Positions 46,107 through 61,730 of a stretch of DNA of 64,000 bases are shown here, one piece after another; position 1 is the first letter of the stretch, and each line of letters starts with the position of its first letter. Source of the stretch: Thalassospiraceae bacterium LMO-JJ14 (lineage in GTDB: Bacteria; Pseudomonadota; Alphaproteobacteria; Rhodospirillales; Casp-alpha2); contig CP134604.1 of NCBI GenBank assembly GCA_021555105.2, forward strand, positions 3,510,501-3,574,500, given 5' to 3'. The notes beneath the pieces are model-generated. The model was not told where the DNA came from. It worked only from the letters and a program-made list of their open reading frames with translations, and searched no databases. The position numbers were made by a program, and so were the translations under genes.

Positions 46107-47812
46107 CACGTAATGTCCTTCTTGAAGTATTTGATCACCGAGCGGATCGGGTTCGGCGCTGCCTGCCCCAGACCGCAGATCGATGCATCCATCATGGCAT
46201 CCGAAAGTTCACCAAGCAGTTTGGTGTTCCACTTCTTGGTATCCATCAGTTTGACCGCTTTCTCGCAGCCGACACGGCACGGTGTACACTGACCGCAGCT
46301 TTCATCTTCAAAGAATTTCAGAAGATTCACGGACACGTCGCGCATGTGATCCTTGTCCGACAGGATCACCACGGCGTGCGACCCGACGAAGTGCCCGTAC
46401 TTTTCAAGCTGGCCGAAATCGAGCGCAAGATTGCCCATCGACGCGGGCATGATCCCACCGGACGGCCCGCCCGGCAGATAGCCCTTGAAGGTATGCCCGT
46501 CGAGCATCCCGCCACAGGCTTCGATCAGTTCTTCCGCCGTCGCACCGGCCGCGGTCAGCACCACACCCGGGTTCTTGACGCGCCCGGAAACGGAATAAGA
46601 CCGGTTGCCCTTGTGGCCGTCGCGGCCCTGCTTGATGAACCAGTCGGCCCCCTTGGCGAGGATTTCCGGCATCCAGTAAACGGTTTCGACGTTGTGAACC
46701 AGCGTCGGGCGGCCGAAGACGCCGACCTGTGCCACATACGGCGGGCGGTGACGCGGCAGGCCGCGTTTGCCCTCGATGCTTTCGATCATCGCGCTTTCCT
46801 CGCCGCAAATATAGGCACCCGCGCCACGGCGCAGATGCACATAACCGGGCTCGATGATCTTCTTCTTTTCGAGTACCGCGATTTCCTTGAGCAGAACGTT
46901 GCGGATGTGCGGATATTCATCGCGGAGATAGATATAGACCGCCGTGGCATCCACACCCCAGGCGCCGATCAGCATCCCTTCGAGGAATTGGTGCGGTTTG
47001 GTTTCCAGATAGAGCTTGTCCTTGAACGTCCCCGGCTCGCCTTCGTCGGCGTTGATGCACATGTAACGCGGCCCCTCGGCCGCACGCACGAACTTCCACT
47101 TCTGCCCGGACGGAAACCCGGCGCCGCCCAGCCCGCGCAGTCCGGCTTCGAGAAACGTCTCGATGACCTGATCGGGCGTCTGCTTGCCCTTGCGCAGACC
47201 CTTCAGAACTTTGTAGCCGCCCGCCTTCACATAGGCATCATGGCTCTGGTATTTGACTTTCGCAGGCTTGATGTCGCGGTTTTTGGCGGCTTTCAACAAC
47301 GACGCAACCGACACGTTGCCGGTATAATTCTGGCCGATCGCCGCCGCCGGCGCCTTGTCGCAAAGTCCCATGCACGGCGCGTGCTGGACTCGCACATACT
47401 TGGGCGCCTTGTTACCAAGCGATTTGATGATGTCCTTGGCGCCGGCCATTTCGCAGCTCAGCGAATCGCAGACCCGGATCGTCACTTCGGCCGGGGCATC
47501 CTCGCCTTCGCGGACCACGTCGAAGTGATGATAGAATGTCGCGACCTCGTACACCTCGGCCATTGCCAGCTTCATTTCCTCGGCCAACGCCGCCAGATGC
47601 GCGGCTGACAGATGCCCGTACTTGTCCTGAATCAGATGCAGGTGCTCGATCAGCAGATCCCGTGCGCGGGACTTGCCTTTCAAAAGCTTCTGCACGTCCC
47701 CCCGTGCATCGGGCTGAACCTGTCGGCCTTTCGGGAAGGCCCGCGATTTCTTGCGATTGCCGCCGCCCGGGCGAACAGGCTTGGTTTTCTTTCTTTTCTC
47801 GAATGTATCCAT
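46106..47812 (-). CDS. fdhB: Formate dehydrogenase NAD-reducing subunit (fused 24-kDa/51-kDa type)
   Basis: A 568-residue fusion. Residues about 40-200 are a NuoE/FdsG-like thioredoxin-fold domain with the [2Fe-2S] cysteines in CDSLSCEMAGA and APCMGLCDKAP. Residues about 220-568 are a NuoF/FdsB-like NADH/FMN domain (GLRGLGGAGFPSG, NADEGEPGTFKD) ending with the [4Fe-4S] motif ESCGQCTPCRVGC. In many bacteria these are two genes (fdsG, fdsB); here they are one. It passes electrons from FdhA to NAD+. A basic N-terminal tail precedes the first domain. Confidence 0.9.
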   Translation of the reverse strand: MDTFEKRKKTKPVRPGGGNRKKSRAFPKGRQVQPDARGDVQKLLKGKSRARDLLIEHLHLIQDKYGHLSAAHLAALAEEMKLAMAEVYEVATFYHHFDVVREGEDAPAEVTIRVCDSLSCEMAGAKDIIKSLGNKAPKYVRVQHAPCMGLCDKAPAAAIGQNYTGNVSVASLLKAAKNRDIKPAKVKYQSHDAYVKAGGYKVLKGLRKGKQTPDQVIETFLEAGLRGLGGAGFPSGQKWKFVRAAEGPRYMCINADEGEPGTFKDKLYLETKPHQFLEGMLIGAWGVDATAVYIYLRDEYPHIRNVLLKEIAVLEKKKIIEPGYVHLRRGAGAYICGEESAMIESIEGKRGLPRHRPPYVAQVGVFGRPTLVHNVETVYWMPEILAKGADWFIKQGRDGHKGNRSYSVSGRVKNPGVVLTAAGATAEELIEACGGMLDGHTFKGYLPGGPSGGIMPASMGNLALDFGQLEKYGHFVGSHAVVILSDKDHMRDVSVNLLKFFEDESCGQCTPCRVGCEKAVKLMDTKKWNTKLLGELSDAMMDASICGLGQAAPNPIRSVIKYFKKDIT

Positions 47813-47824
47813 AATGCCGTAAAC

Positions 47825-48367
47825 CTATTTCACCAATGGCAGCAGTTTCTTGAAAGCGTCCGTCCCGGCTTTTCCTAGCCATTCGAACACGACCATTTCC
47901 GTCGTAACAATGCCCGCTCCGCAAGCCCCCAGACGGTCGAGGCATGCCCGCTCGCTTTCCAGCGTGCGTGACGACGTCGCATCCGTCACGACAAACACCT
48001 CATAGCCTTCGTCCATCAGGTTGACTGCTGTCTGCATGACGCAGATATGCGCCTCCATCCCGGCTATGACGGCCTGTTTGCGCCCCAGGGCGTGGAATGT
48101 ATCGGCAAAGTGTTGATCTTCCATGCAGGAAAAATGCATCTTTTCCAACACCGGCAGGCCGCTCGACACCGAAGCAATTTCCTTCACTGTCTGGCCCAGT
48201 CCCTTTGGGTACTGTTCCGTCAGCAGAACAGGAATTTCCAGCTCGCGGGCCACGGAAATCAGAAGCTTCGCATTCTTGATGGTGCGCGCCGGCGCCTGCA
48301 TGGCCGGCACAAGCCGCTCTTGCATGTCGATGACGATGAGGCATGAATCGCTTGATCGTATTAGCAT
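47825..48367 (-). CDS. Isochorismatase-fold hydrolase
   Basis: A 180-residue cysteine hydrolase with the triad Asp14 (LIVIDMQE), Lys in LEKMHFSC and Cys in GMEAHICVMQT. These enzymes hydrolyse N-carbamoyl compounds, nicotinamide-like amides or related esters. It lies twelve bases upstream of fdhB on the same strand and downstream of the CoA-ligase pair after a 166-base gap in which no other gene is visible. A role in an oxalate-related amide (for example oxamate-type substrates) is conceivable but only inferred from position. Confidence 0.78.
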   Translation of the reverse strand: MLIRSSDSCLIVIDMQERLVPAMQAPARTIKNAKLLISVARELEIPVLLTEQYPKGLGQTVKEIASVSSGLPVLEKMHFSCMEDQHFADTFHALGRKQAVIAGMEAHICVMQTAVNLMDEGYEVFVVTDATSSRTLESERACLDRLGACGAGIVTTEMVVFEWLGKAGTDAFKKLLPLVK

Positions 48368-48533: not shown

Positions 48534-49412
48534 TTAGGCACGCACCATTGCATCGGCCATCGCCGGCGCGACAGAGACTACGTTCTCGACGACACTCGCG
48601 CCCGCAGCCTTGAGAGCCGCGTTCTTCGTAACGGCATTGCCGCTGCCGAACACGGAAAGCGTTCCGGCATGGCCCATGCGGCGTTGCGCCGGGGCATGGC
48701 GCCCGACAACCAGGGCGATGACGGGCTTTTCGTAGGACTGCGCCTTCAGAAATGCCGCCGCCTGTTCTTCCTCGCTGCCGCCGATTTCACCGATCAGCAC
48801 GACGCCATGCGTGTCCGGGTCGGCCATGAAAAGTTCAAGGCAGCGGACAAAGCCTATCCCGTGCACGGGATCACCGCCGATGCCGACCGTTGTCGACTGG
48901 CCGAGGCCGAGGCTGCTAAGACTGGCGACGACTTCGCTGGTCAGTGAGGCCGACCTGGAGGCAATGCCGATGTGGCCGGGCTTGGCATCGGCCGTCGACA
49001 TGACGCCGATTTTGCAGGCCCCCGGGGTCAGAACGCCTTGCGAGTTCGGCCCGACCAGTTCGCTTTTCGAGCCCCGGAGTGCATCTTTGACACGCACCAT
49101 ATCAAGCACCGGAATGCGTTCGGTGACGCACACGATCAAAGGCATTTCCGCCTCGATCGCCTCGATCATGGCCTGCGCGGCGTTGTGCGCCGGCACCATG
49201 ATCATGCTCGCATTGGCAGCGGCTTCGCGCATCGCTTCACCGACCGTGTTGAACACGGGACGGCCGATATGGTTCTTGCCGCCCTTGCCGGGGCGCACGC
49301 CGCCGACAACGTTGGTGCCGTAGTTGATGGCCTGATCGGTATAGAACGTGCCGGATCGCCCGGTCATACCCTGTACGATCAGTTTGGTGTTTGCATTTGC
49401 AAGAATGCTCAT
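48534..49412 (-). CDS. Succinyl-CoA synthetase alpha-like subunit of an acyl-CoA ligase (SucD/MtkB family)
   Basis: A 292-residue protein with the CoA-binding Rossmann domain ([19 protein letters not shown]) and the phospho-histidine His248 in RMGHAGTLS. Two usually invariant stretches differ from E. coli SucD: GPNCPGV is GPNSQGV (residues 121-127) and SRSGTLTYE is SRSASLTSE (152-160). These changes, and the location in an oxalate/formate cluster rather than with TCA genes, point to a different acid substrate. Malate-CoA ligase (MtkB) is one alternative; a dedicated oxalate ligase is another. Confidence 0.8.
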
Positions 49413-49426
49413 GTTTCCGTTCCCCC

Positions 49427-50590
49427 TCAGGCCGCGCGCGCGATTGCGGTCTGAACCGCATCGCTTATCGAATCGCAGCGCTCATGCGGCACGTTCCGGT
49501 CGACCAGCATTTGCCGCGCATAGTCGGCATTATGTCCGGCAAGGCGGGTCACGACCGGCACCTTGCGGTCCGACCAGGCGAGCGCAAGCGCCAGCGCTTC
49601 GGCAATGGTGTCGCAAGGCGTCATGCCGCCACCGTGAATGTGCACGAGTATCGACTTCACGTTCGGGTCGCTCAGCAGCATGCCGATCCCGCGCGCCACC
49701 TGCAGGCTCGTCGCGGTGGTGCGGATATCCATGAAGTTGGCGGCACGCCCGCCGGCATCGGTGATCATGTCCTGGGTCGCCAGGGCAAGCCCCGCACCGT
49801 TGACGACGACGCCGATATTACCGTCGAGGCGGACCAGATTGATCTCGTCCTTCTGTGCCTGCATCTCGATTTCATCCCCTTCCGCGCCGGAAGAGAGGGT
49901 GGCGAATTCCGGATGCCGGTAGAGCGCATTGTTGTCGATGCTGATCTTGGCATCGACCGCGCAGAACGTGCCGTCGCGGGTCAGCGTCAGGGGATTGACC
50001 TCGATCAGGGTTGCATCCGTGCGCAGAAACACCTTGACCAGAGCGGCGATGATATCGCGCGCCTCTGCCGCCGGTGTACCGGAAATCCCGAGCTTGTCGA
50101 GGAACCCGGTACAGGCGGCATCGTCGAACGCGCCGTCATAGGAGACGCTCAGGGCCTCGACGATCCCGGGTTCGCGTTTGACGCGTTCCTCGAAATCGAC
50201 ACCGCCCGCTTTCGAGCCGAGCACCGAAACAGTGCCGCTCGACTGATCGACAATGACGGCAAGAAAAAAATCACGTTCGGAATCGACAGCCGTTTCGACA
50301 TACACCCGCTCGACGGTTTCGCCGTCGGCGCCGGTTTGCGGCGTCACCAGCCGGGCGCCGATCAGGCGCTTGGCGATTTCACCGACCTTGCTCGGCGTTG
50401 CCGCCAGCTCGACGCCGCCGGCCAGACCGCGCCCGCCGGCCAGGATTTGAGCCTTCACGGCAAATTTATGTCCCGGCAGTACGCGCGCCTGCGCTTCCGC
50501 GTCGGCGGGCGTCGTGGCGATATGTCCCTCGGGCACGGGCACGCCGTATTGCGCCAGGATTTCCTTCGCTTCGTGTTCATATAAATTCAT
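49427..50590 (-). CDS. Succinyl-CoA synthetase beta-like subunit of an acyl-CoA ligase (SucC/MtkA family)
   Basis: A 387-residue ATP-grasp subunit (MNLYEHEAKEILAQYGVP start, ILAGGRGLAGGV, LIEVNPL, DAKISIDNNALYR, DGNIGVVVNGAGLA). Loops that contact the acid or CoA differ from standard SucC: D-V-G-G-G-A becomes DIRTTA (288-293), G-G-I-V-R-C-D becomes GGGMTPCD (320-327), and the E of x-E-G-G-V becomes A in SKAGGV (126-131). It is the first gene of the leftward transcript from the operator-bearing gap 50591-50923 and sits fourteen bases before the alpha subunit gene. Substrate is not settled. Confidence 0.8.
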   Translation of the reverse strand: MNLYEHEAKEILAQYGVPVPEGHIATTPADAEAQARVLPGHKFAVKAQILAGGRGLAGGVELAATPSKVGEIAKRLIGARLVTPQTGADGETVERVYVETAVDSERDFFLAVIVDQSSGTVSVLGSKAGGVDFEERVKREPGIVEALSVSYDGAFDDAACTGFLDKLGISGTPAAEARDIIAALVKVFLRTDATLIEVNPLTLTRDGTFCAVDAKISIDNNALYRHPEFATLSSGAEGDEIEMQAQKDEINLVRLDGNIGVVVNGAGLALATQDMITDAGGRAANFMDIRTTATSLQVARGIGMLLSDPNVKSILVHIHGGGMTPCDTIAEALALALAWSDRKVPVVTRLAGHNADYARQMLVDRNVPHERCDSISDAVQTAIARAA

Positions 50591-50682: not shown

Positions 50683-50701
50683 CTGGTATACCATATACCA
50701 G
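50683..50701. promoter_or_regulatory. GntR-type operator, site 1
   Basis: CTGGTAT-accat-ATACCAG is a perfect 19-base palindrome and contains TGGTATACCA (50684-50693). It lies 93 bases upstream of the sucC-like start and 223 bases upstream of gntR, in the 333-base divergent gap (50591-50923), where no gene is visible. The symmetry and core GTATAC fit operators of FadR/FCD-type GntR regulators. Confidence 0.6.
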
Positions 50702-50822
50702 TGAAGAAGTTTCGGCAATTCAAAAAACTGCAGAAAACCAAGGGTTACAGAGGGAACTTTAGGTGCACCGCAACATAAAAATGTTCAGATTCAGCTATTG
50801 CGGCTGCATGGGAGGTGGCATA

Positions 50823-50832
50823 TGGTATACCA
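50823..50832. promoter_or_regulatory. GntR-type operator, site 2
   Basis: A second exact TGGTATACCA, about 92 bases before the gntR ATG at 50924 and 139 bases from site 1. Two identical palindromes in a divergent promoter suggest cooperative control or looping by the GntR protein. Confidence 0.6.
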
Positions 50833-50923
50833 AGTACATATGAAGCGGCCGGGCGGGCGTCAGGTGCGGATAACGCATCGTCACCCGATAAAAAAGCAAT
50901 CCGGCGGCAATCAGGAGGGGGCG

Positions 50924-51679
50924 ATGGCGCGGAGCTTGAAGCTCAAGGCAGTCGGCACGAATTTCAGCCTCAAGGATCATATCTATGAGGTGCTGAAAGA
51001 AGCCATCACCGGCATGAATATCTATGATGCCGATGCCAACCTGAAGCTTGAAGAACGGAAAATGGCCGAGCAGCTCGGCATTTCCCGCACCCCGATTCGC
51101 GAAGCCCTGGCCCGTCTCGAACAGGAAGGCTTCGTAGATATCCAGCCCCGCAAGGGCATCTTCATCAAACGCAAGTCCAGAGAAGAAGTCCTCGAGATGA
51201 TCACCGTCTGGGCGGCACTGGAAAGCATGGCGGCGCGCCTGACGACGACCCATGCCAGCGACGACGAAATCAGTTCGTTGCGCCGCATGGTCGCCGATTA
51301 CACCAAAAACGAAGCGCGCGAACACATGGACGAGTATTCGGAAGCGAATATCCGCTTTCATCGCCGCATTCTCGAACTTTCAAAATGCTCGATGCTGCAT
51401 TCCATCGCCGACGGATTGTTCTTGCACATGCGCGCCATCCGCGCCCGCGCCATGGCCGAGGCCGACCGGGTCAGCCTTTCGGTCGACGACCACATGCACA
51501 TCATCGAGGCGCTGGAAAAGCGCGACGGCGATCTCGCCAGCAAACTGGTGCGCGAACATACCATGCAGTTGCATGCGCATATTCGCCAGAGCTGGCACGA
51601 ATTCACGGACCACGCCCCGGAAGACGACGACAAGTCCGAACCGGCGCCAACCCGGTCCAAACGCAAAACTGCCGGCTGA
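50924..51679 (+). CDS. GntR-family (FadR/FCD) transcriptional regulator of the oxalate cluster
   Basis: A 251-residue regulator. ATG at 50924 is chosen for GGAGGGGG just upstream. The winged helix is at about 20-85 (MAEQLGISRTPIREALARLEQEGFV in pieces), and an FCD ligand domain at about 95-225 carries the metal-site pattern FHRRILELS and HMHIIEALEKRD. A basic tail ends the protein. It precedes oxc by 30 bases on the same strand. Its probable operator TGGTATACCA occurs at 50684, 50823 and, with one change, 58455. Ligand probably oxalate, oxalyl-CoA or formate. Confidence 0.85.
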   Translation: MARSLKLKAVGTNFSLKDHIYEVLKEAITGMNIYDADANLKLEERKMAEQLGISRTPIREALARLEQEGFVDIQPRKGIFIKRKSREEVLEMITVWAALESMAARLTTTHASDDEISSLRRMVADYTKNEAREHMDEYSEANIRFHRRILELSKCSMLHSIADGLFLHMRAIRARAMAEADRVSLSVDDHMHIIEALEKRDGDLASKLVREHTMQLHAHIRQSWHEFTDHAPEDDDKSEPAPTRSKRKTAG

Positions 51680-51709
51680 AAACAGCCGCCCGACCACGGA
51701 GGATACGAC

Positions 51710-53452
51710 ATGTCGTCGACCGCGACGGAAGTCCAGGCAACTGAAGCCACCGATGACGCACAGGCGCTCACCGATGGGTTCCATCTTGTCATCGATGCGC
51801 TGAAACTTAACGGTATCAGCACAATATATAATGTCCCGGGGATTCCGATCACCGATCTCGGCCGCATGATGCAGGCCGAAGGCTTGCGTGTCCTGTCGTT
51901 CCGCCACGAACAGCATGCCGGGTATGCCGCCGCGATCGCAGGCTACCTGACGAAAAAGCCCGGTGTCTGCCTGACGGTGTCCGCGCCCGGCTTCCTCAAC
52001 GGTCTGACCGCGCTGGCGCACGCCACCACCAACTGTTACCCGATGATCCTGATTTCCGGTTCGTCGGAGCGTGAAATCGTCGACCTGATGCAGGGCGACT
52101 ACGAGGAAATGGACCAACTCGCCATCGCCAAGCCGATGTGCAAGGCGGCATACCGCGTGCTGCACGCCGAAGACATAGGAATCGGCATTGCGCGTGCCAT
52201 CCGCGCCGCGGTTTCCGGCCGTCCGGGCGGCGTTTACCTGGATCTGCCGGCAGCGCTGCTGGGTCAGGTCATGGATGCCGAAGCAGGCGCCAAATCGCTG
52301 GTCGAAGTCATCGACCCGGCACCGGCGCAGCTACCGGCACCGGATTCCGTCAAACGCGCGCTGGATGTTCTCAAATCCGCCGAGCGGCCGCTGATCGTTC
52401 TCGGCAAGGGCGCCGCCTATGCGCAGGCCGATGACGCCATCCGCGCGCTGGTCGAAAAAAGCGGCATTCCGTACATCGCCATGAGCATGGCCAAGGGCCT
52501 TTTGCCGGACGATCACGATCTGTACGCCGGCGCCGCCCGCTCGCTTGTGCTGAAAGAATCCGACACCGTGATGCTGATCGGTGCCCGGCTCAACTGGCTG
52601 CTGTCGCACGGCAAGGGCAAAACCTGGGGCACGGCGCCGAAGAAATTCATCCATATCGATATCGAACCGAAGGAAATGGACTCCAACGTCGAAATCGTCG
52701 CCCCGCTGGTCGGCGATATCGCATCGTGCGTCGATGCCCTTCTGGACGGCATGGGGAACGGCTGGACACCGCCGCCCGCGGCATGGACCGACGCCGTCAA
52801 GGCGAAGCGCGACACCAACGTCGAGCGCATGGCGCCGAAGCTGCAAAACAACAACGTGCCGATGGATTACCACGGCGCACTCGGCGCGCTGAAACGGATC
52901 ATCGCCGCCAACCCCGACGTGATCCTGGTCAACGAAGGCGCCAACACGCTCGATTTCGCACGCTCCATCATCGACATGTTCAAGCCCCGCAAGCGGCTTG
53001 ATGTCGGCACCTGGGGTGTCATGGGCATCGGCATGGGCCAGGCCATCGCGGCGGCCGTGGAAACCGGTCATCCGGTGCTCTGCGTCGAGGGTGACAGCGC
53101 CTTCGGGTTCTCCGGCATGGAGGTCGAGACGATCTGCCGTTACAACCTGCCGGTCTGCGTCGTTGTCTTCAACAACGGCGGCATCTACCGCGGCACCGAC
53201 ACCAATCCGACCGGCGGCGCCGACGTGGCACCGACGGTGTTCGTCAAGGACGCGCGTTATGACAAGATGATGGAAGCGTTCGGCGGCGTCGGCGTGTATG
53301 CGACATCCCCCGACGAGCTGGCACAGGCGGTCGAAGAAGCCCTGAAATCGGGCAAGCCGACCCTCGTCAACGCCGTCATCGACGGAAACGCCGGTACCGA
53401 AAGCGGCCGTATCGGCAATCTCAACCCGCAAAGCGTCGTGTCCAAGAAATAA
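51710..53452 (+). CDS. oxc: Oxalyl-CoA decarboxylase
   Basis: A 580-residue TPP enzyme with the catalytic Glu67 in [12 protein letters not shown], the TPP/Mg segment [20 protein letters not shown] (about 460-480) followed by NNGGIYRG, and the C-terminal [12 protein letters not shown] typical of oxalyl-CoA decarboxylases. It converts oxalyl-CoA to formyl-CoA and CO2 in the cytoplasm. ATG follows GGAGGATACGAC. Forms an operon with the CoA-transferase 41 bases downstream. Confidence 0.93.
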
Positions 53453-53493
53453 GAACACGTCATGGCATTCACACCAATAAGCAGGAGCAAATT

Positions 53494-54765
53494 ATGAAAG
53501 CTCTAGAAGGCGTCAAAATTCTCGATTTCACCCACGTCCAGTCCGGGCCGACCTGTACCCAGTTGCTGGCCTGGTTCGGTGCCGACGTCATCAAGGTCGA
53601 ACGCCCCGGTGTCGGCGATGCGACGCGCAAGCAACTGGTCGACGTGCCGGGCGCGGATTCGCTCTACTTCACCATGCTCAATCACAACAAGCGTTCGATC
53701 GAGCTGAACTCGAAGAACGAGACCGGCAAGGAAGTGCTGGAGCGTCTGATCAAAACGTGTGACGTGCTGGTCGAAAACTTCGCGCCGGGCGCGCTGGACC
53801 GTATGGGGTTCACCTGGGAACGCATTCAGGAACTCAATCCCCGCATGATCATGGCGTCCGTGAAAGGCTTCGGCCCCGGCAAGTACGAAGACTGCAAGGT
53901 CTACGAGAACGTCGCCCAGTGCGCCGGCGGTTCGGCATCGACAACCGGCTTCGTCGACGGCATCCCCGTTGTGACCGGTGCGCAGATCGGCGATTCCGGC
54001 ACCGGACTGCACCTGGCGCTGGGCATTGTAACCGCGCTGTTCCAGCGCGAGAAAACCGGCAAGGGCCAAAAGGTTCTGGCCGCCATGCAGGACGGCGTCA
54101 TCAACCTTTGCCGCGTCAAGCTCCGCGATCAGCAGCGTCTCAAGGCCGGTCCGCTCAAGGAATACTCCCAGTTCGGCGAAGGCATCCCGTTTGGCGATGC
54201 GACGCCGCGCGCCGGCAACGATTCCGGCGGCGGTCAGCCGGGCCGCATCCTGAAGTGCAAGGGCTGGGAAACGGACCCCAACGCGTACACGTACTTCATC
54301 ACCCAGGCGGCTGTCTGGGAAAAGATCTGCGACGTCATCGGCGAGCCGGACTGGAAAACCAAGGAAGGTTACGCCACGCCGCCCGAACGCCTCGACAAAC
54401 TGAACGAGATTTTCGCACGCATCGAAGAGTGGACGATGACCAAGGACAAGTTCGAAGTCATGGATATCTGCAACCCGCTCGACATCCCCGTCGGCCCGAT
54501 CCTCAGCATGAAGGAAATTGCCGAGGATGAAGGCCTGCGCGCGACCGGCACGATCGTTGAAGTCGATCATCCGGAACGCGGCCCGTACCTGACGGTCGGG
54601 TGTCCGATCAAGCTTTCGGGCTCGCCGGTCGAGGTCGAACGTTCGCCGCTGCTCGGTGAACATACCGAAGAAATTCTGACGCAGGTTCTGGGCTACGCGG
54701 ACGGCGATCTGGAGCGGATCAAGGCATCCGGCGCCGTCGGCCAGGTCAAGGCCGCGGCCGAGTAA
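53494..54765 (+). CDS. frc: Formyl-CoA:oxalate CoA-transferase
   Basis: A 423-residue class III CoA-transferase. The catalytic aspartate is Asp167 ([15 protein letters not shown]), with Gln16 in [11 protein letters not shown] and a flexible glycine loop GGGQPGR near residue 248, all characteristic of Frc. It transfers CoA from formyl-CoA to oxalate, making oxalyl-CoA for Oxc and releasing formate. Length and motifs match the Oxalobacter enzyme well. GCAGGAGC precedes the ATG. Confidence 0.93.
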
Positions 54766-54773
54766 TTCAGGCC

Positions 54774-54860
54774 GCCCGGTCTTTCGGGCGCGCCGTAACG
54801 ATAAGCCCGGCAAACCGGGCGCTGTACGAAATGATTTGAAGGGGCGCCAGCGTGTGCCCC
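54774..54860 (+). other. Three hairpins between frc and the formyltransferase gene
   Basis: Pairs: GCCCG/CGGGC (54774-54778 with 54785-54789), GCCCGG/CCGGGC (54805-54810 with 54815-54820) and GGGGC/GCCCC (54841-54845 with 54856-54860). The last ends just before the ribosome site AGGAGAGG. No U-tracts follow, so they look like mRNA-processing or translation-modulating structures that let frc be expressed differently from the downstream genes. Confidence 0.4.
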
Positions 54861-54876
54861 TGACAGGAGAGGAAAT

Positions 54877-55794
54877 ATGCGCGTTATCGTCATGGGTCAG
54901 CAGGCGTTCGGCAAGGATGCCCTGGCCAAGATTCTGGAAGCCGGAGTCGACGAAGTAGTGGCCGTTTACTGCGAGCCTGACAAGGACGGTAAGCCGCTCG
55001 ACCCGATCAAGGAATTCGCCCTGGAACAAGGCCTGACTGTCCATCAGCCGGCGCACTTCAAGGATCAGGAAAGCCTCGACGAGTTGGCCGCGCTGAACGC
55101 CGACCTGATGGTCATGGCGTTCGTCAACGTGTTCGTGCCGGAAGCTGCACGCAATACCCCGAAGCTCGGTTCGATCTGCTTCCATCCTTCGCTGCTGCCT
55201 CTGCACCGCGGTCCGTCCGCAGTCAACTGGCCGATCATCATGGGCAGCACCAAGTCGGGTTATTCCTGGTTCTATCCGACGGATGGCCTCGACGAGGGCG
55301 ATGTCCTGATGATGTGGGAATGCCCGATCGAGCCGGACGACACGGTGATCGATCTCTACTTCAAGAAGATATATCCGGCGGCCATCGATTCTGTTCTCGA
55401 GGTCTGCGATCTGTTCCGTTCGGGAAATCCGCCACGCATCGTCCAGGACGAAGCCGGTGCGACTTACGAACGCCGGTGCACGGCGAAGCATGCCCACATC
55501 GATTGGAACAAGCCGGTCAAGCAGGTTTACGATCTGATCCGCGGCACCAACCCGTCGCCCGGTGCGTGGACGACCTTCGGCGGTGCCGAAGTCGGCGTCT
55601 TCGATTGCCAGCGGGTCGAGGGTGATGGCGTCAGCAGCCGCGTCGTCGACGTGTCAGAAGACGGCGTGACCGTGCAATGCATAGGTGGGCGTATTCTGCT
55701 AAAGCGTGTACGCCCTGCCGGTGGGGGCAAGGTATCCGCCGCCGAATGGGCCAATGACGCCGGCTTAGAGGCCGGCACCAACCTGGGCGACTGA
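54877..55794 (+). CDS. Folate-dependent formyltransferase (10-formyl-THF hydrolase-domain-like)
   Basis: A 305-residue protein with an N-terminal formyl_transf_N fold and a C-terminal formyl_transf_C (OB-like) domain. The sequence CFHPSLLPLHRGPSAVNW (His103) and TDGLDEGDVL (Asp139) match the hydrolase domain of 10-formyl-THF dehydrogenase (ALDH1L1; His106, Asp142 in the rat protein) better than Met-tRNA formyltransferase. No dehydrogenase domain is attached. Placed between frc and fhs, it may move formyl groups between THF and another acceptor, possibly CoA, or hydrolyse 10-formyl-THF. Strong ribosome site AGGAGAGG. Confidence 0.75.
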   Translation: MRVIVMGQQAFGKDALAKILEAGVDEVVAVYCEPDKDGKPLDPIKEFALEQGLTVHQPAHFKDQESLDELAALNADLMVMAFVNVFVPEAARNTPKLGSICFHPSLLPLHRGPSAVNWPIIMGSTKSGYSWFYPTDGLDEGDVLMMWECPIEPDDTVIDLYFKKIYPAAIDSVLEVCDLFRSGNPPRIVQDEAGATYERRCTAKHAHIDWNKPVKQVYDLIRGTNPSPGAWTTFGGAEVGVFDCQRVEGDGVSSRVVDVSEDGVTVQCIGGRILLKRVRPAGGGKVSAAEWANDAGLEAGTNLGD

Positions 55795-55839
55795 ACGGCC
55801 GCCGGTACAAACAACTGATTGAATTGGGAATCTCTAACT

Positions 55840-57513
55840 ATGGCAAAAACCGATATCGAAATCGCCCGCGAAGCCTCGCCGAAGCACATCAATGACATCG
55901 GCGCTAAGCTCGGCATCAAGGAACAGCATCTGCTGCCTTACGGCCACGACAAGGCAAAGGTTTCCGCCGATTTCATCAAAAGCATTGAAGGCAACGATAC
56001 CGGCAAGCTAATCTTGGTGACGGCCATCAATCCGACCCCCGCCGGTGAAGGCAAGACGACGACCACCGTCGGTCTCGGCGACGGTCTCAACCGTATCGGC
56101 AAGAAAGCGACGATCTGTATTCGCGAAGCATCCCTCGGCCCGAACTTCGGCATGAAGGGCGGCGCCGCCGGCGGCGGCTATGCACAGGTCATCCCGATGG
56201 AGGACATGAACCTCCACTTCACCGGGGATTTCCACGCCATCACGTCGGCGCACAACCTTCTCTCGGCGATGATCGACAACCACGTCTATTGGGGCAACGA
56301 GCTTGAGATCGACGTCCGCCGTATCGTCTGGCGCCGCGTCCTCGACATGAACGACCGCGCACTGCGCCAGATCAACTGCTCGCTCGGCGGCGTCGCGAAC
56401 GGCTTCCCGCGCGAAGCCGGGTTCGACATTACCGTGGCCTCCGAAGTGATGGCCATTCTGTGCCTGGCTTCCGACCTCGCCGATCTGGAACAGCGCCTTG
56501 GCGACATGATCGTCGCCTACCGCCGCGACCGCACGCCGGTGTATTGCCGCGACATCAAGGCCGAAGGCGCGATGGCGGTCCTGCTCAAGGACGCCATGCA
56601 GCCGAACCTGGTGCAGACGCTGGAAAATAATCCTGCCTTCGTGCACGGCGGCCCGTTCGCCAACATCGCGCATGGCTGCAACTCGGTCGTCGCCACCAAG
56701 ACCGCGCTCAGGCTCGCCGACTATGTCGTCACCGAAGCCGGGTTCGGCGCCGACCTGGGGGCCGAGAAGTTCTTCGACATCAAGTGCCGCAAGGCCGGCC
56801 TCAGCCCGAACGCGGTGGTCATCGTCGCCACCATCCGGGCGCTGAAATCGAACGGCGGCGTCGGCAAGGACAAGCTCAACGAGGAAAACGTCGACGCCCT
56901 CAAGAAAGGCTGCCCGAACCTCGGCCGCCACCTCGAGAACCTGAAGAAATTCGGCGTGCCGGTCGTGGTTGCGATCAACAACTTCTACACCGATACAGAT
57001 GCCGAGGTCGAAGCCGTCAAGGAATACGTCGCCTCGCAGGGCGCCGAAGCAATCCTTTGCGAACATTGGGCCAAGGGATCGGAAGGCACGGTGGCGCTCG
57101 CCAACAAGGTCGTCGAACTCGTCGATTCCGGCGCCGCCAACTTCAAGCCGCTGTACCCCGACGACATGTCCCTTTTCGACAAGATCAACACCGTGGCGAA
57201 GGAGATCTACCGCGCAGACGAGGTCATCGCCGACACGAAAATCCGCAATCAGCTCAAGGACTGGGAAGAAGCCGGCTATGGCAACTTGCCCGTCTGCATG
57301 GCGAAGACGCAGTATTCGTTCTCGACCGATCCGAACCTCAAAGGCGCGCCGACCGGCCATTCCGTGCCGATCCGCGAAGTCCGTATTTCAGCCGGTGCCG
57401 GCTTCATCGTCGTTGTCACGGGTGAAATCATGACCATGCCGGGTCTGCCCCGGAAGCCTGCATCGGAATCGATCCGGCTCAACGCTGAAGGCCTGGTCGA
57501 GGGTCTGTTTTAA
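55840..57513 (+). CDS. fhs: Formate-tetrahydrofolate ligase
   Basis: A 557-residue protein with the P-loop [11 protein letters not shown] (about 67-77), [18 protein letters not shown], and [14 protein letters not shown] of formyl-THF synthetases. It makes 10-formyl-THF from formate, THF and ATP. ATG at 55840 is used; the ribosome site is weak (GGGAATCTC), so coupling with the upstream gene may help. It supplies C1 units from oxalate-derived formate. Confidence 0.93.
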
Positions 57514-57525
57514 GGAGCACGGAAG

Positions 57526-58389
57526 ATGGCGTTCCGCACGATACTCGTTCCGATCCGCGGTGACGGCAGAGGTGAATCCGTGCTCGATCATGCATGTGCA
57601 TTGGGCCGGCACTTCAACGCGCACATTCGTGCGGTGCACTGCAAGCCGAGCGCCAAGGATCTGATTCCTTTCGGCGTCGCGGTCCCGTCCCTGGTCAGGG
57701 ATCAGATCAACAAGTCCGCCTCACTGATCACCGACAACGAAGTTGAACGCCTGAAATCCCTGTTCGACGCCTATGTCAAAAAGAATGACATTGCCGTCTG
57801 CGATACGCGCCCGCCTATGCATGACACACTGACGATCTCGTGGAGTGTCACGGACGGCAAGCAGGCCGACATCGTCGGCATTTGGGGCCGCCTGGCCAGT
57901 GTTGTCGCCGTCGCACAGCCGGAACTCGATACCAATCTCGGCCAGCACACACTTGAATCGGCGTTGCTCAATACCGGGCGTCCGGTGCTTTTGTGCCCCA
58001 AGACCCCGCTTACCACACTAGGTGATAATGTCGCCATTGCCTGGAACGGGTCAGCGGAATCGGCACGTGCCATCGCTATGTGCGGGTCCATCATCGCCGA
58101 AGCGAAATCCGTCACCGTGCTGTGCGCAGAGGATGCGCAAAATCTTGAACTCAGCGCCGAAGACCTGATCCTGCACCTGCAGGATCATGACATTACGGCA
58201 ACCGCGAAGACCGTGAAGTCGAAAGAATCATCCCTCGGACAAAGTCTCGTGACCGCCGCCAAGGAAAGCGGCGCCGACGTTATCATCATGGGCGCTTACG
58301 GCCGTAGCCGCGGACGCGCCATGGTTCTGGGCAGCGTTACGCAATGGATCATCGATCACACGGATATGCCGGTCCTTTTGGTGCACTAG
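57526..58389 (+). CDS. Universal stress protein, two-domain
   Basis: A 287-residue protein with two UspA-like halves: ILVPIRGDGRGESVLDHA at the start and, at the C-terminus, the complete ATP motif GAYGRSRGRAMVLGSV. AAGGAG lies upstream, and it starts twelve bases after fhs, so it belongs to the oxalate operon. Probably an adenine-nucleotide-binding stress factor; its connection to oxalate metabolism is positional only. The following gap (58390-58595) contains a GntR-type operator copy. Confidence 0.82.
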   Translation: MAFRTILVPIRGDGRGESVLDHACALGRHFNAHIRAVHCKPSAKDLIPFGVAVPSLVRDQINKSASLITDNEVERLKSLFDAYVKKNDIAVCDTRPPMHDTLTISWSVTDGKQADIVGIWGRLASVVAVAQPELDTNLGQHTLESALLNTGRPVLLCPKTPLTTLGDNVAIAWNGSAESARAIAMCGSIIAEAKSVTVLCAEDAQNLELSAEDLILHLQDHDITATAKTVKSKESSLGQSLVTAAKESGADVIIMGAYGRSRGRAMVLGSVTQWIIDHTDMPVLLVH

Positions 58390-58453
58390 GCCTGGAATTA
58401 ACAAGGTTAAGGCATGAATTTGATTTGATCGAACGAAGGACAGTAACTTATCA

Positions 58454-58466
58454 TTGGTATACCTAA
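58454..58466. promoter_or_regulatory. GntR-type operator, site 3 (in front of tctC)
   Basis: TTGGTATACCTAA contains TGGTATACCT at 58455-58464, one change from the exact TGGTATACCA of sites 1 and 2, with core GGTATACC at 58456-58463. It is 130 bases upstream of tctC. This links the transporter genes to the same regulator as oxc-frc. Confidence 0.55.
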
Positions 58467-58595
58467 CACCAAGATTAGGTCCCAAAGGGCAACGTCACCA
58501 ACAGAAGTGACCATAAATGAACATCCAGTTTTGACCATGTTGCCGGTTTATCCGCTTATGCAGTGCCGGCAGAGAATATAACTTGGGAGGTTATT

Positions 58596-59579
58596 ATGGC
58601 TATCTCTAGACGTCACATTCTTGGCTTAGCCGGTGCACTCAGCATTGGCGCAATGGTTGCCGGCATGCCCGGCACGGCTGCCGCTTGGGAGCCGACAAAA
58701 CCAATCGACTTCATCATCATGGCCGGCAAGGGTGGGGGCGCCGATAAAATGGCGCGCCTGATGCAGGCAATCGTTGAGCAGGAAAAGCTGGCTTCGAAGC
58801 CGCTGGTTCCCGTCAACAAATCCGGTGGCTCGGGTGCAGAAGCACTGATCGCCGCCAAGGGTGCAAACGACCCCGATCACACTATCATGGTGACGCTCAA
58901 CTCGTTCTTCACGACGCCGCTGCGTCAATCGAAGCTCGGCATCGACATCATGACGTTCGCACCTGTCGGCCGCATGGCGGAAGACACCTTCCTGCTTTGG
59001 GTGCACAAGGATTCCGGCATCAAGACGTTCGAGGAATTCCTCGCCAAAGCCAAAGCGGACGGCAACAAATGGGTGATGGGCGGTACGGGTAAAGCGCAGG
59101 AAGACGAACTCCTGACGGAATACCTGAACAACAACTTCGGCCTGAAGATCAAGTACGTGCCGTACAAGGGTGGCGGAACCGTTGCCAAGCAGTTGGCCGG
59201 CAAGCACATCAACTCCAGCGTCAACAACCCTTCGGAAGCTCTTGGCTTCTATGAGTCGGGTGACGTCGTGCCGATCCTCACCTTCACCGCAGAACGTCTG
59301 CCGCTGTTCAAGGATGTCCCGACCCTTAAAGAAAAAGGCAAGGACTTCTCATATGGCATGCAGCGTGCCGTTGTCGGTGCGCCTGGTATGAGCGCCGATG
59401 CCCTGAAGTACTATCAGGATCTCTTCTCCAAGGTCTATCACTCGGCCAAATGGCAGAAGTACCGGAAAGACAAGTCGCTGTTCGGCGATGAGTTGTCCGG
59501 CGCTGCGCTGAAAACCTATTGGGACGCTCAGCGCGAACGTCACCGGAAGATGCTCGTTGAAATGGGTGCGATCAAGTAA
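58596..59579 (+). CDS. tctC: Tripartite tricarboxylate transporter substrate-binding protein (TctC family)
   Basis: A 327-residue periplasmic protein with a signal peptide that includes two arginines (ISRRHILGLAGALS) and ends near AAA-W. The mature fold follows the TctC/Bug pattern (PIDFIIMAGKGGGADKMARLM, where most members have a P-F-x-x-G-G-x-x-D turn; VPYKGGGTVAKQLAGKH). ATG at 58596 follows GGGAGG. It captures a carboxylate for the TctAB permease. Location next to oxc-frc and a shared operator suggest oxalate or a related acid. Confidence 0.85.
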   Translation: MAISRRHILGLAGALSIGAMVAGMPGTAAAWEPTKPIDFIIMAGKGGGADKMARLMQAIVEQEKLASKPLVPVNKSGGSGAEALIAAKGANDPDHTIMVTLNSFFTTPLRQSKLGIDIMTFAPVGRMAEDTFLLWVHKDSGIKTFEEFLAKAKADGNKWVMGGTGKAQEDELLTEYLNNNFGLKIKYVPYKGGGTVAKQLAGKHINSSVNNPSEALGFYESGDVVPILTFTAERLPLFKDVPTLKEKGKDFSYGMQRAVVGAPGMSADALKYYQDLFSKVYHSAKWQKYRKDKSLFGDELSGAALKTYWDAQRERHRKMLVEMGAIK

Positions 59580-59643: not shown

Positions 59644-60141
59644 ATGAGACGTGCAGAAATTATCACGGCCGGTTTAATGGCACTTCTCTCGATCTACTTG
59701 ATGTACAAAAGTACGGAGCTGGATATCGGCTACGTGCGAGGAGAAGGCCCCGGCGGCGGCTTCTGGCCGTTCTGGCTTGCAGCCTGCATGCTGTTGTCGA
59801 CCATCTGGATCGCCATCAACTGGGTCCTCAAAAAATCACCGCCGTCGCAATCGACCGAGAAATTTCTCGACAGCTACGGATTGCGCATGCTTCTGCTGGT
59901 CGGTGGCGGTGTTACCGCGTTTATCGCCCTGACCCATATTCTCGGGTTTTACGGCGCCATCTGCGTGTTCCTTATTTACTACATCCATTTCCTTGGCCGC
60001 CACAGTTGGGGGGTCACACTGGCCATCGCCCTGACAACCCCGGTCGTGACATTTTTGTTTTTCGATATTGCGATGCGGATCGTGCTCCCGAAGGGCTATC
60101 TCGAGCCGCTGTTCCTGCCGCTGTACGATTTCTTCTTCTAA
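59644..60141 (+). CDS. tctB: Tripartite tricarboxylate transporter small permease subunit (TctB family)
   Basis: A 165-residue, four-helix membrane protein. The segment YVRGEGPGGGFWPFWLA is characteristic of TctB. It lies between tctC and tctA, in the usual C-B-A order. Confidence 0.82.
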   Translation: MRRAEIITAGLMALLSIYLMYKSTELDIGYVRGEGPGGGFWPFWLAACMLLSTIWIAINWVLKKSPPSQSTEKFLDSYGLRMLLLVGGGVTAFIALTHILGFYGAICVFLIYYIHFLGRHSWGVTLAIALTTPVVTFLFFDIAMRIVLPKGYLEPLFLPLYDFFF

Positions 60142-60215: not shown

Positions 60216-61730
60216 ATGGAAATTCTCGGGCATCTCGTAGACGGCATTTTCATCGCGCTGGAACCCCTTAACATCATGCTGATGTTGATCGGTGTTGCAC
60301 TCGGCCTGTTCATCGGCGCCATGCCGGGCCTCGGCTCCGTCAACGGCGTCGCCATTCTGCTCCCGGCGACGTTCCTGGTGCCGCCGGCATCGGCGATGAT
60401 CTTTCTCGCGGCAATCTACTACGGGGCCATGTACGGCGGTGCCATATCCTCGATCACGCTCGGGATACCAGGCGCGTCAACGGCCGTGGCGACAACGTTC
60501 GACGGGCGCCCGCTGGCTCTCAAGGGGCGCGCGGACCTGGCACTGGTCACGGCTGCCGTCGCATCGTTTGTCGGCGGCAGCGTCGCCAACGTGCTGTTCA
60601 CCGCTTTCGCGCCGCCGCTGGCCCACGTCGCCCTGGACTTCGGCGACCCGGAGATCTTCGCCCTGATGCTGCTGGCCTTTGCGACCTTCGTCGGTCTCGG
60701 CGGCGACGACATCCCGAAAACCCTGTTCTCGATCTGCTTCGGCCTGGTCATGGCGTCCGTCGGCCTCGACATCATGACCGGCGAGCCGCGCCTCGTGTTC
60801 GGCGACATCACCGGGTTCATGCACGGCATCAACTTCCTGGTGCTCGCCATCGGCGTCTACGGCATCGGCGAGATGCTGTGGACCATCGACAGCACACGCG
60901 GCGAAATGACCATGACCAGCGCGGTTCTGACCGTTAAGGGCATTCTCAGGGCAATCCGCGAAACCGCCACATCGTGGAAAGGCACAACGATCGGATCGTT
61001 CCTCGGGTTCTTCGTCGGCATCCTGCCGGCAGCCGGCGCGACCCCCGGCTCGCTGATGGCCTATGGCATCACCAAGATGGTCGACAAGCATCCCGAAACG
61101 TTCGGCAAGGGCAACATCAACGGCATCGCCGCCCCCGAAGCCGCCAACAACTCGGCCTCGACCGGTGCCATGCTGCCGATGCTGACGCTCGGCATTCCCG
61201 GCTCGCCGACTACGGCCATCCTGCTCGGCGGCATGGTCATCTGGGGCTTGCAACCGGGGCCGCTGCTGTTCACCAACCAGACCGAATTCGTGTGGGGCCT
61301 GGTCGGTTCTTTCTACATCTCGAATTTCTTCGCGCTGGCCGTCAACCTCGCCTTCATCCCGCTGTTCATCTGGATGCTGCGGATGCCCTTCACGGTGCTG
61401 GCGCCGATGATCTTCGTGCTTTCCGTGGTTGGCGGTTATGCCGCGACGCAGGACATGCACGATATCTGGCTGATGCTGATCTTCGGTGTCGGCGCATATC
61501 TGCTGCGCAAGCTGGATTACCCGGTGGCACCGGCAGTGCTGGCCATCGTGCTCGGCCCGATCGCCGAGCCGAAACTGCGCCAGTCGCTGCTGTTTTCCAG
61601 CGGCGACCCAATGATCTTCCTTGAGCGTCCGATCTCCGGACCGATCACCATCATCGCGATCATTCTGATCCTGCTGCCGCTGTTCAAGCTGATCCGCGAC
61701 AAGATGAAGGCCCGCAGCGCCGCCGCATAG
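60216..61730 (+). CDS. tctA: Tripartite tricarboxylate transporter large permease subunit (TctA family)
   Basis: A 504-residue protein with about twelve helices and the TctA motifs GAMPGLGSVNGVAILLP, ITLGIPGASTAVATTFDGRPL in pieces, GILPAAGATPGSLMAYG and NGIAAPEAANNSASTGAMLPML in pieces. Proton- or sodium-coupled carboxylate uptake is the family role. It ends the proposed oxalate regulon. Confidence 0.88.
   Translation: MEILGHLVDGIFIALEPLNIMLMLIGVALGLFIGAMPGLGSVNGVAILLPATFLVPPASAMIFLAAIYYGAMYGGAISSITLGIPGASTAVATTFDGRPLALKGRADLALVTAAVASFVGGSVANVLFTAFAPPLAHVALDFGDPEIFALMLLAFATFVGLGGDDIPKTLFSICFGLVMASVGLDIMTGEPRLVFGDITGFMHGINFLVLAIGVYGIGEMLWTIDSTRGEMTMTSAVLTVKGILRAIRETATSWKGTTIGSFLGFFVGILPAAGATPGSLMAYGITKMVDKHPETFGKGNINGIAAPEAANNSASTGAMLPMLTLGIPGSPTTAILLGGMVIWGLQPGPLLFTNQTEFVWGLVGSFYISNFFALAVNLAFIPLFIWMLRMPFTVLAPMIFVLSVVGGYAATQDMHDIWLMLIFGVGAYLLRKLDYPVAPAVLAIVLGPIAEPKLRQSLLFSSGDPMIFLERPISGPITIIAIILILLPLFKLIRDKMKARSAAA

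Follow-up and report, generated by a model that had tools for sequence, protein, structure and literature searches.

A conserved 17-bp dyad and a predicted GntR-controlled regulon for oxalate use in Thalassospiraceae bacterium LMO-JJ14

Are the uptake of oxalate, its activation with coenzyme A (CoA), its decarboxylation and the use of the resulting formate governed in Thalassospiraceae bacterium LMO-JJ14 by one regulator acting through one palindromic site? The question is raised by a 64,000-nucleotide stretch of the genome (contig CP134604.1, positions 3,510,501 to 3,574,500; this whole stretch is called the window here), in which gntR, a gene for a GntR-type transcription regulator with an FCD effector domain, stands amid genes for oxalate breakdown, formate use and a transporter (Table 1). 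In marine alphaproteobacteria, genes and transcripts have already revealed oxalotrophy. The model of one regulator and one palindrome had been put forward in a first-pass annotation of the window, and it is supported by the present analysis: dyads precede gntR, tctC, sucC and fdhB copies unlinked to the cluster, and none precedes the operon-internal genes. Judged from sequence comparison, a single regulator very probably switches on oxalate import, oxalate breakdown and the use of the resulting formate. With high probability, the three sites found in the window are operators of the FCD-type GntR, which would regulate its own gene and control the sucCD-isochorismatase-fdhBA genes, the gntR operon and tctCBA as a repressor.

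The palindromes and the 17-bp dyad

The palindrome TGGTATACCA occurs exactly at 50684-50693 and 50823-50832, both in the intergenic gap from which the sucC-like gene (start codon at 50590) and gntR (ATG at 50924) diverge, and a version with one change, TGGTATACCT, lies at 58455-58464, 131 bases 5' of the tctC ATG; a sequence search thus confirmed all three positions claimed in the first-pass annotation. Four matches to TGGTATACCA with at most one mismatch were found in the window, a number reached by none of 100 dinucleotide-preserving shuffles (mean 0.33). The motif is not scattered randomly inside genes: the whole genome (3.89 Mb) contains four exact copies, all intergenic, and a further 15 one-mismatch copies, which beyond the window lie mostly within genes. 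Elsewhere in the genome, exact palindromes are paired 14 bp apart between transhydrogenase-like and M24-peptidase-like genes (C1:3016502), and one lies about 250 bp upstream of a DctP-like TRAP gene (C1:3350952; gene names assigned by eye). As candidate regulon members these were left unassigned, being below the dyad threshold and not full dyads.

Comparison with relatives showed that the conserved unit is longer than the 10-mer: each site in the window lies within a 17-bp dyad, TGGTATAC-N-GTATACCA, of which perfect examples occur in two further genera (locus L055, TGGTATACAGTATACCA; locus L061, TGGTATACGGTATACCA). With up to three mismatches, the dyad occurs at exactly three places in the genome, namely O1, O2 and O3 of Table 1, and this result is not circular because the consensus came from L055 and L061. 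Rarity alone proves little, because the reversed pattern, used as a control, gives six genomic matches at the same stringency; placement and conservation are what count. O2 is an inverted copy of O1, with centres 132 bp apart. Among congeneric relatives, both palindromes on the gntR side are retained at unchanged spacing in diverged intergenic flanks, and O1 is unchanged in five relatives whose flanking DNA differs.

The additional bases of the dyad form a third half-site. Of 76 different exact 10-mers taken from the promoters of gntR and tctC, 71 have this half-site exactly 7 bp off, as a further TGG on the upstream side in 36 and as a further CCA on the downstream side in 37. Other offsets are mostly near zero, the main exception being offset 14 (13 of 76). 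This test was anchored on exact 10-mers, and so is free of bias from selecting sites by the 17-bp consensus; an earlier measure of outer versus inner half-site retention was dropped, as its sites had been chosen by that consensus. The bare 10-bp palindrome was rejected as the full operator, since it recovers 71 of 99 gntR promoters versus 88 of 99 for the 17-bp dyad (matched false-positive rate, about 0.8%). So, of the first-pass operator, the palindrome has stood but the 10-mer as a complete unit has not, the conserved unit being 17 bp with three half-sites. The nearly constant offset of 7, together with the better recovery by the longer model, indicates that the predicted operator consists of a single GTATAC palindrome to which a third half-site is added; it can also be read as two nested palindromes whose centres lie 7 bp apart.

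Placement of the dyad in related oxalate clusters

The comparison set comprised 103 non-duplicate loci (1.6 Mb, window included), mainly from assemblies of Rhodospirillales, Kiloniellales, Hyphomicrobiales, Neomegalonema and Paracoccaceae. A dyad was counted when it matched the consensus at 13 or more of 16 positions, and the upstream region of gntR was taken as 400 bp. By this measure 80 of 100 clusters have a dyad ahead of gntR, 48 of 60 ahead of tctC and 29 of 30 ahead of sucC (0–0.4% in shuffles); the sucC count is not independent, most of its sites being in divergent promoters common to gntR or tctC. No dyad was found upstream of oxc (0/71), frc (0/95), the Fmt-like gene (0/66), ftfL (0/55) or usp (0/22), which come after gntR as an operon. 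Altogether, 147 of the 158 dyads in the 1.6 Mb fall in gntR, tctC, sucC or fdhB promoters. The gene order is shuffled among the loci, with tctCBA before gntR, directly after gntR or after usp, and with sucCD and fdhBA found in some loci and missing from others. The gene orders of these related genomes vary enough that the counts cannot be put down to linkage alone.

The dyad also moves with fdhBA away from the cluster. Copies of fdhB unlinked to the cluster have a dyad in 15 of 26 cases where the genome has gntR and in 1 of 12 where no gntR was detected (p = 0.005), and in one genome (G015) a dyad stands upstream of oxc-frc with gntR on another contig. Genes gntR and oxc almost always co-occur. 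A gntR orthologue is also present in a culturable relative, Pelagibius litoralis DSM 21314 (L156). To read the palindromes as chance matches, or as promoter elements without a regulator, is hardly credible: the reversed pattern does give a similar number of genomic matches, and the dyad does contain a TATGGT -10 box, but 17 bp are conserved where the flanks have diverged, across the 103 clusters the dyads keep to three or four promoters, and the third half-site stands at one offset in nearly all cases, so that the comparative data already contradict it.

Several points weigh against regulation of all these genes by GntR through the dyad. The threshold of 13/16 was chosen after the sites had been seen, and the genomes counted are related, so that the counts do not represent independent events. 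About one-fifth of the gntR genes have no dyad at threshold within 400 bp (some have one elsewhere in the locus), and one genome (G032; assembly 86% complete, genus-mates carrying gntR) has an fdhB dyad without a detected gntR. Moreover, the LMO-JJ14 genome encodes seven FCD proteins besides this GntR, which could read GTATAC palindromes. That such palindromes are usual for the regulator class, as the first-pass annotation had held, agrees with their being common to many FadR-type regulators (PMC4494728), and this, with eight FCD genes in the genome, would allow another FCD protein to bind the sites while the neighbouring GntR controls something else. We consider this very unlikely, for the dyads stand beside this gntR in most clusters and co-occur with it across genomes, and a genome scan with up to three mismatches found no dyad near the genes of the other seven.

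Dyads were also observed at other genes. In two genomes (G009:C89, L233:4575; G022:C6, L234:4041) one precedes a second TctC-TctB-TctA set, only 25% similar, which lies near the cluster and is divergent from a long open reading frame. In G024 (L229:4981) one lies about 190 bp upstream of a malate dehydrogenase-like gene, which may be another member of the regulon in this genus. Three loci with distant taxon labels, L129 (Oceanobacillus sp. HTM 045), L159 (Planctomycetota) and L196 (SAR324), hold an alphaproteobacterial-type cluster with GntR identity of 54–68%; mislabelling, misbinning or gene transfer may be the reason.

Predicted promoters, metal site and mode of action

A generic promoter scan detected no promoter around gntR, and the promoters there were recognised only after about 80 dyads had been aligned. 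A TTG stands 17–19 bases before the dyad in 53 of 80 gntR sites, and at -18/-19 in 21 of 29 sucC sites; the -10 hexamer TATGGT thereby falls mid-dyad with a 17-bp spacer, as is seen in the window on both strands. The predicted tctC promoter is largely retained in three relatives, and because it ends right before the dyad, the dyad seems to cover the tctC start site. The tctC reading frame most likely begins at ATG 58596, ahead of which relatives retain a GGGAGG ribosome site. Dyads lying over the predicted -10 box (gntR, sucC) or start site (tctC) suggest that the GntR protein is most likely a repressor.

The protein itself has a winged-helix domain (PF00392, 52 bits; cut-off 27) and an FCD effector domain (PF07729, 79 bits; cut-off 24.3), and a TKGT/ACMA palindromic sequence lies near its own gene, as is typical of FCD-type GntR regulators. 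Among 89 orthologues, the metal-site residues N142, H190 and H212 are invariant and H146 is at least 97% conserved, in agreement with the pattern of the metal-binding FCD subgroup (Asn or Asp plus three His). Oxalate is a strong metal chelator, and could plausibly be the inducer at this site. The four residues match the zinc ligands Asn137, His141, His192 and His214 of Atu1419 from Agrobacterium fabrum, where citrate is bound (PMC7797058).

These features suggest the following mode of action. GntR would regulate itself and three units, the leftward sucCD-isochorismatase-fdhBA, the rightward gntR-oxc-frc-formyltransferase-ftfL-usp, and tctCBA. Without inducer, it would block RNA polymerase by sitting on the -10 boxes of the sucC and gntR promoters and on the tctC start region. 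Release would come when oxalate, or one of its derivatives (oxalyl-CoA or formate, for example), binds to the FCD domain at its Asn/His/His/His metal site. Looping from O1 to O2 by a tetramer is also possible, because tetrameric Atu1419 loops two palindromes 190 bp apart, and O1 and O2 lie 132 bp from each other. The same tetramer, and inverted copies of O1 and O2 spaced 130–132 bp apart in clusters of the window type, would suit a variant in which the operators are real but GntR activates, or acts mainly by a two-operator loop instead of a direct block of the -10 box. This we judge unlikely, since the position of the dyads is that of a repressor site, many clusters have a single dyad before gntR, and the O1-O2 spacing is constant among close relatives only.

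Genes of the locus and comparison with known systems

Table 1. Features of the oxalate locus (window coordinates)
Feature	Position	Strand	Description
fdhA	43344..46109	-	formate dehydrogenase catalytic subunit; TIGR01591 759 bits, cut-off 666
fdhB	46106..47812	-	NADH-binding subunit of NAD-linked formate dehydrogenase; PF01512, PF01257, PF10589
isochorismatase-fold hydrolase	47825..48367	-	PF00857; in leftward sucCD-fdhBA operon
sucD-like	48534..49412	-	CoA ligase alpha subunit; family search
sucC-like	49427..50590	-	ADP-forming CoA ligase beta subunit, divergent paralogue; family search
O1	50684..50700		putative operator, dyad TGGTATACCATATACCA, 15/16 to consensus; covers predicted -10 of leftward sucC promoter
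predicted sucC promoter	50690..50718	-	-35 TTGCCG (50713-50718), 17-bp spacer, -10 TATGGT (50690-50695); read from sequence
predicted gntR promoter	50798..50826	+	-35 TTGCGG (50798-50803), 17-bp spacer, -10 TATGGT (50821-50826); read from sequence
O2	50816..50832		putative operator, dyad TGGCATATGGTATACCA, 14/16; covers predicted -10 of gntR promoter
gntR	50924..51679	+	GntR/FCD transcription regulator, 251 amino acids
oxc	51710..53452	+	oxalyl-CoA decarboxylase; TIGR03254 997 bits, cut-off 739
frc	53494..54765	+	formyl-CoA:oxalate CoA-transferase; TIGR03253 709 bits, cut-off 504
Fmt-like	54877..55794	+	formyltransferase-fold protein; PF00551/PF02911; TIGR00460 139 bits, under cut-off 201.5
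ftfL	55819..57513	+	formate--tetrahydrofolate ligase; PF01268, NF010030
usp	57526..58389	+	universal stress protein domain protein, last of gntR operon; PF00582
predicted tctC promoter	58425..58454	+	TTGATC, 18-bp spacer, TATCAT; consensus scan
O3	58455..58471		putative operator, dyad TGGTATACCTAACACCA, 13/16; immediately after predicted tctC -10
tctC	58596..59579	+	tripartite tricarboxylate-type binding protein; PF03401
tctB	59644..60141	+	PF07331
tctA	60216..61730	+	PF01970

Oxc and Frc both score above the equivalog cut-offs for the oxalyl-CoA pathway, and the formate dehydrogenase genes (43344-47812), which form the last part of the sucC operon, fall within the predicted regulon. The tripartite tricarboxylate (TTT) transporter set is complete, with TctC, TctB and TctA all detected; gene neighbourhood and the shared operator suggest that it may import oxalate. 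The SucCD-like enzyme, which may be an oxalate-activating ligase, is borderline for its family in both subunits (beta, 393 against a cut-off of 370 for NF001913 and 367 against 375.55 for TIGR01016; alpha, 344.8 against 336 for NF004230 and 347 against 353 for TIGR01019), and its beta subunit is 39% identical to a second sucC copy of the same genome. The isochorismatase-fold hydrolase is conserved in the closest relatives only.

Three further observations concern the enzymes. In three clusters (L199:10748-12475, L163:2534-4258 and L200:9474-11216) and about 25 more, a different thiamine pyrophosphate enzyme occupies the oxc position between gntR and frc; it is about 25% identical to Oxc, under the Oxc cut-off, and nearest to the acetolactate synthase and 2-hydroxyacyl-CoA lyase families, and it may substitute for Oxc or form a C-C bond from formyl-CoA. 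A cluster with no sucCD detected encodes, after frc, a fused ADP-forming CoA ligase of 717 amino acids resembling 4-hydroxybutyrate/acetate--CoA ligase (L200:12706-14859). The Fmt-like protein, below the Fmt cut-off, adjoins ftfL in most clusters; speculatively, the two could transfer the formyl group from formyl-CoA onto tetrahydrofolate, with FtfL running in reverse to recover ATP.

In short, the data give good support to a new regulon under a regulator of a familiar class, with what appears to be an unusually consistent three-part binding site. A literature search for an oxalate GntR regulator, to which subscription journals were mostly out of reach, found none, and the survey of the FadR subfamily by Suvorova et al. 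(2015; PMC4494728) makes no mention of oxalate. The 17-bp operator offers a means to find oxalate genes anywhere in a genome, including transporters and CoA ligases of undefined substrate, and an oxalate biosensor could be developed from it; its third half-site, being nearly mandatory, is a testable case for the assembly of FCD dimers on DNA. More tentatively, and with considerable doubt, we suggest an FCD regulator that senses oxalate directly via its metal site, uses a mandatory three-half-site operator (perhaps with two overlapping dimers), and controls the whole oxalate-to-formate pathway in trans in many alphaproteobacteria, including an oxalate-activating ADP-forming CoA ligase.

Among known systems, Atu1419, a VanR-type FCD repressor (PMC7797058), shares with the present GntR the metal site, 10-bp GTATAC-centred palindromes (ATGTATACAT in Atu1419), the arrangement of two sites between divergent genes with a further one at a different operon, and the overlap of sites with -10 boxes. 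However, it controls hydroxycinnamate genes, whereas the oxalate system has outer bases TGG/CCA and a third half-site that is nearly always there. FadR-subfamily sites likewise combine a TKGT/ACMA palindrome with additional half-site boxes, 7–12 nt from the site centre, and a divergon may carry double sites, each lying close to its operon (PMC4494728); those boxes are weaker than the main half-sites, in contrast to the almost constant extra half-site found here. Escherichia coli NanR is an FCD repressor with GGTATA half-sites, more than two per operator (PMC8012715). NanR uses direct repeats of TGGTATA, unlike the inverted half-sites TGGTATAC/GTATACCA of the oxalate system. Finally, the oxalate catabolism of Oxalobacter and Cupriavidus oxalaticus, based on Frc, Oxc and OxlT, shares its two core enzymes and formate dehydrogenase with the cluster described here (PMC9476978). 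In the latter, however, the tripartite TctCBA takes the transporter position, a GntR operator system is linked, and FtfL, a SucCD paralogue and a formyltransferase-like protein are present as well.

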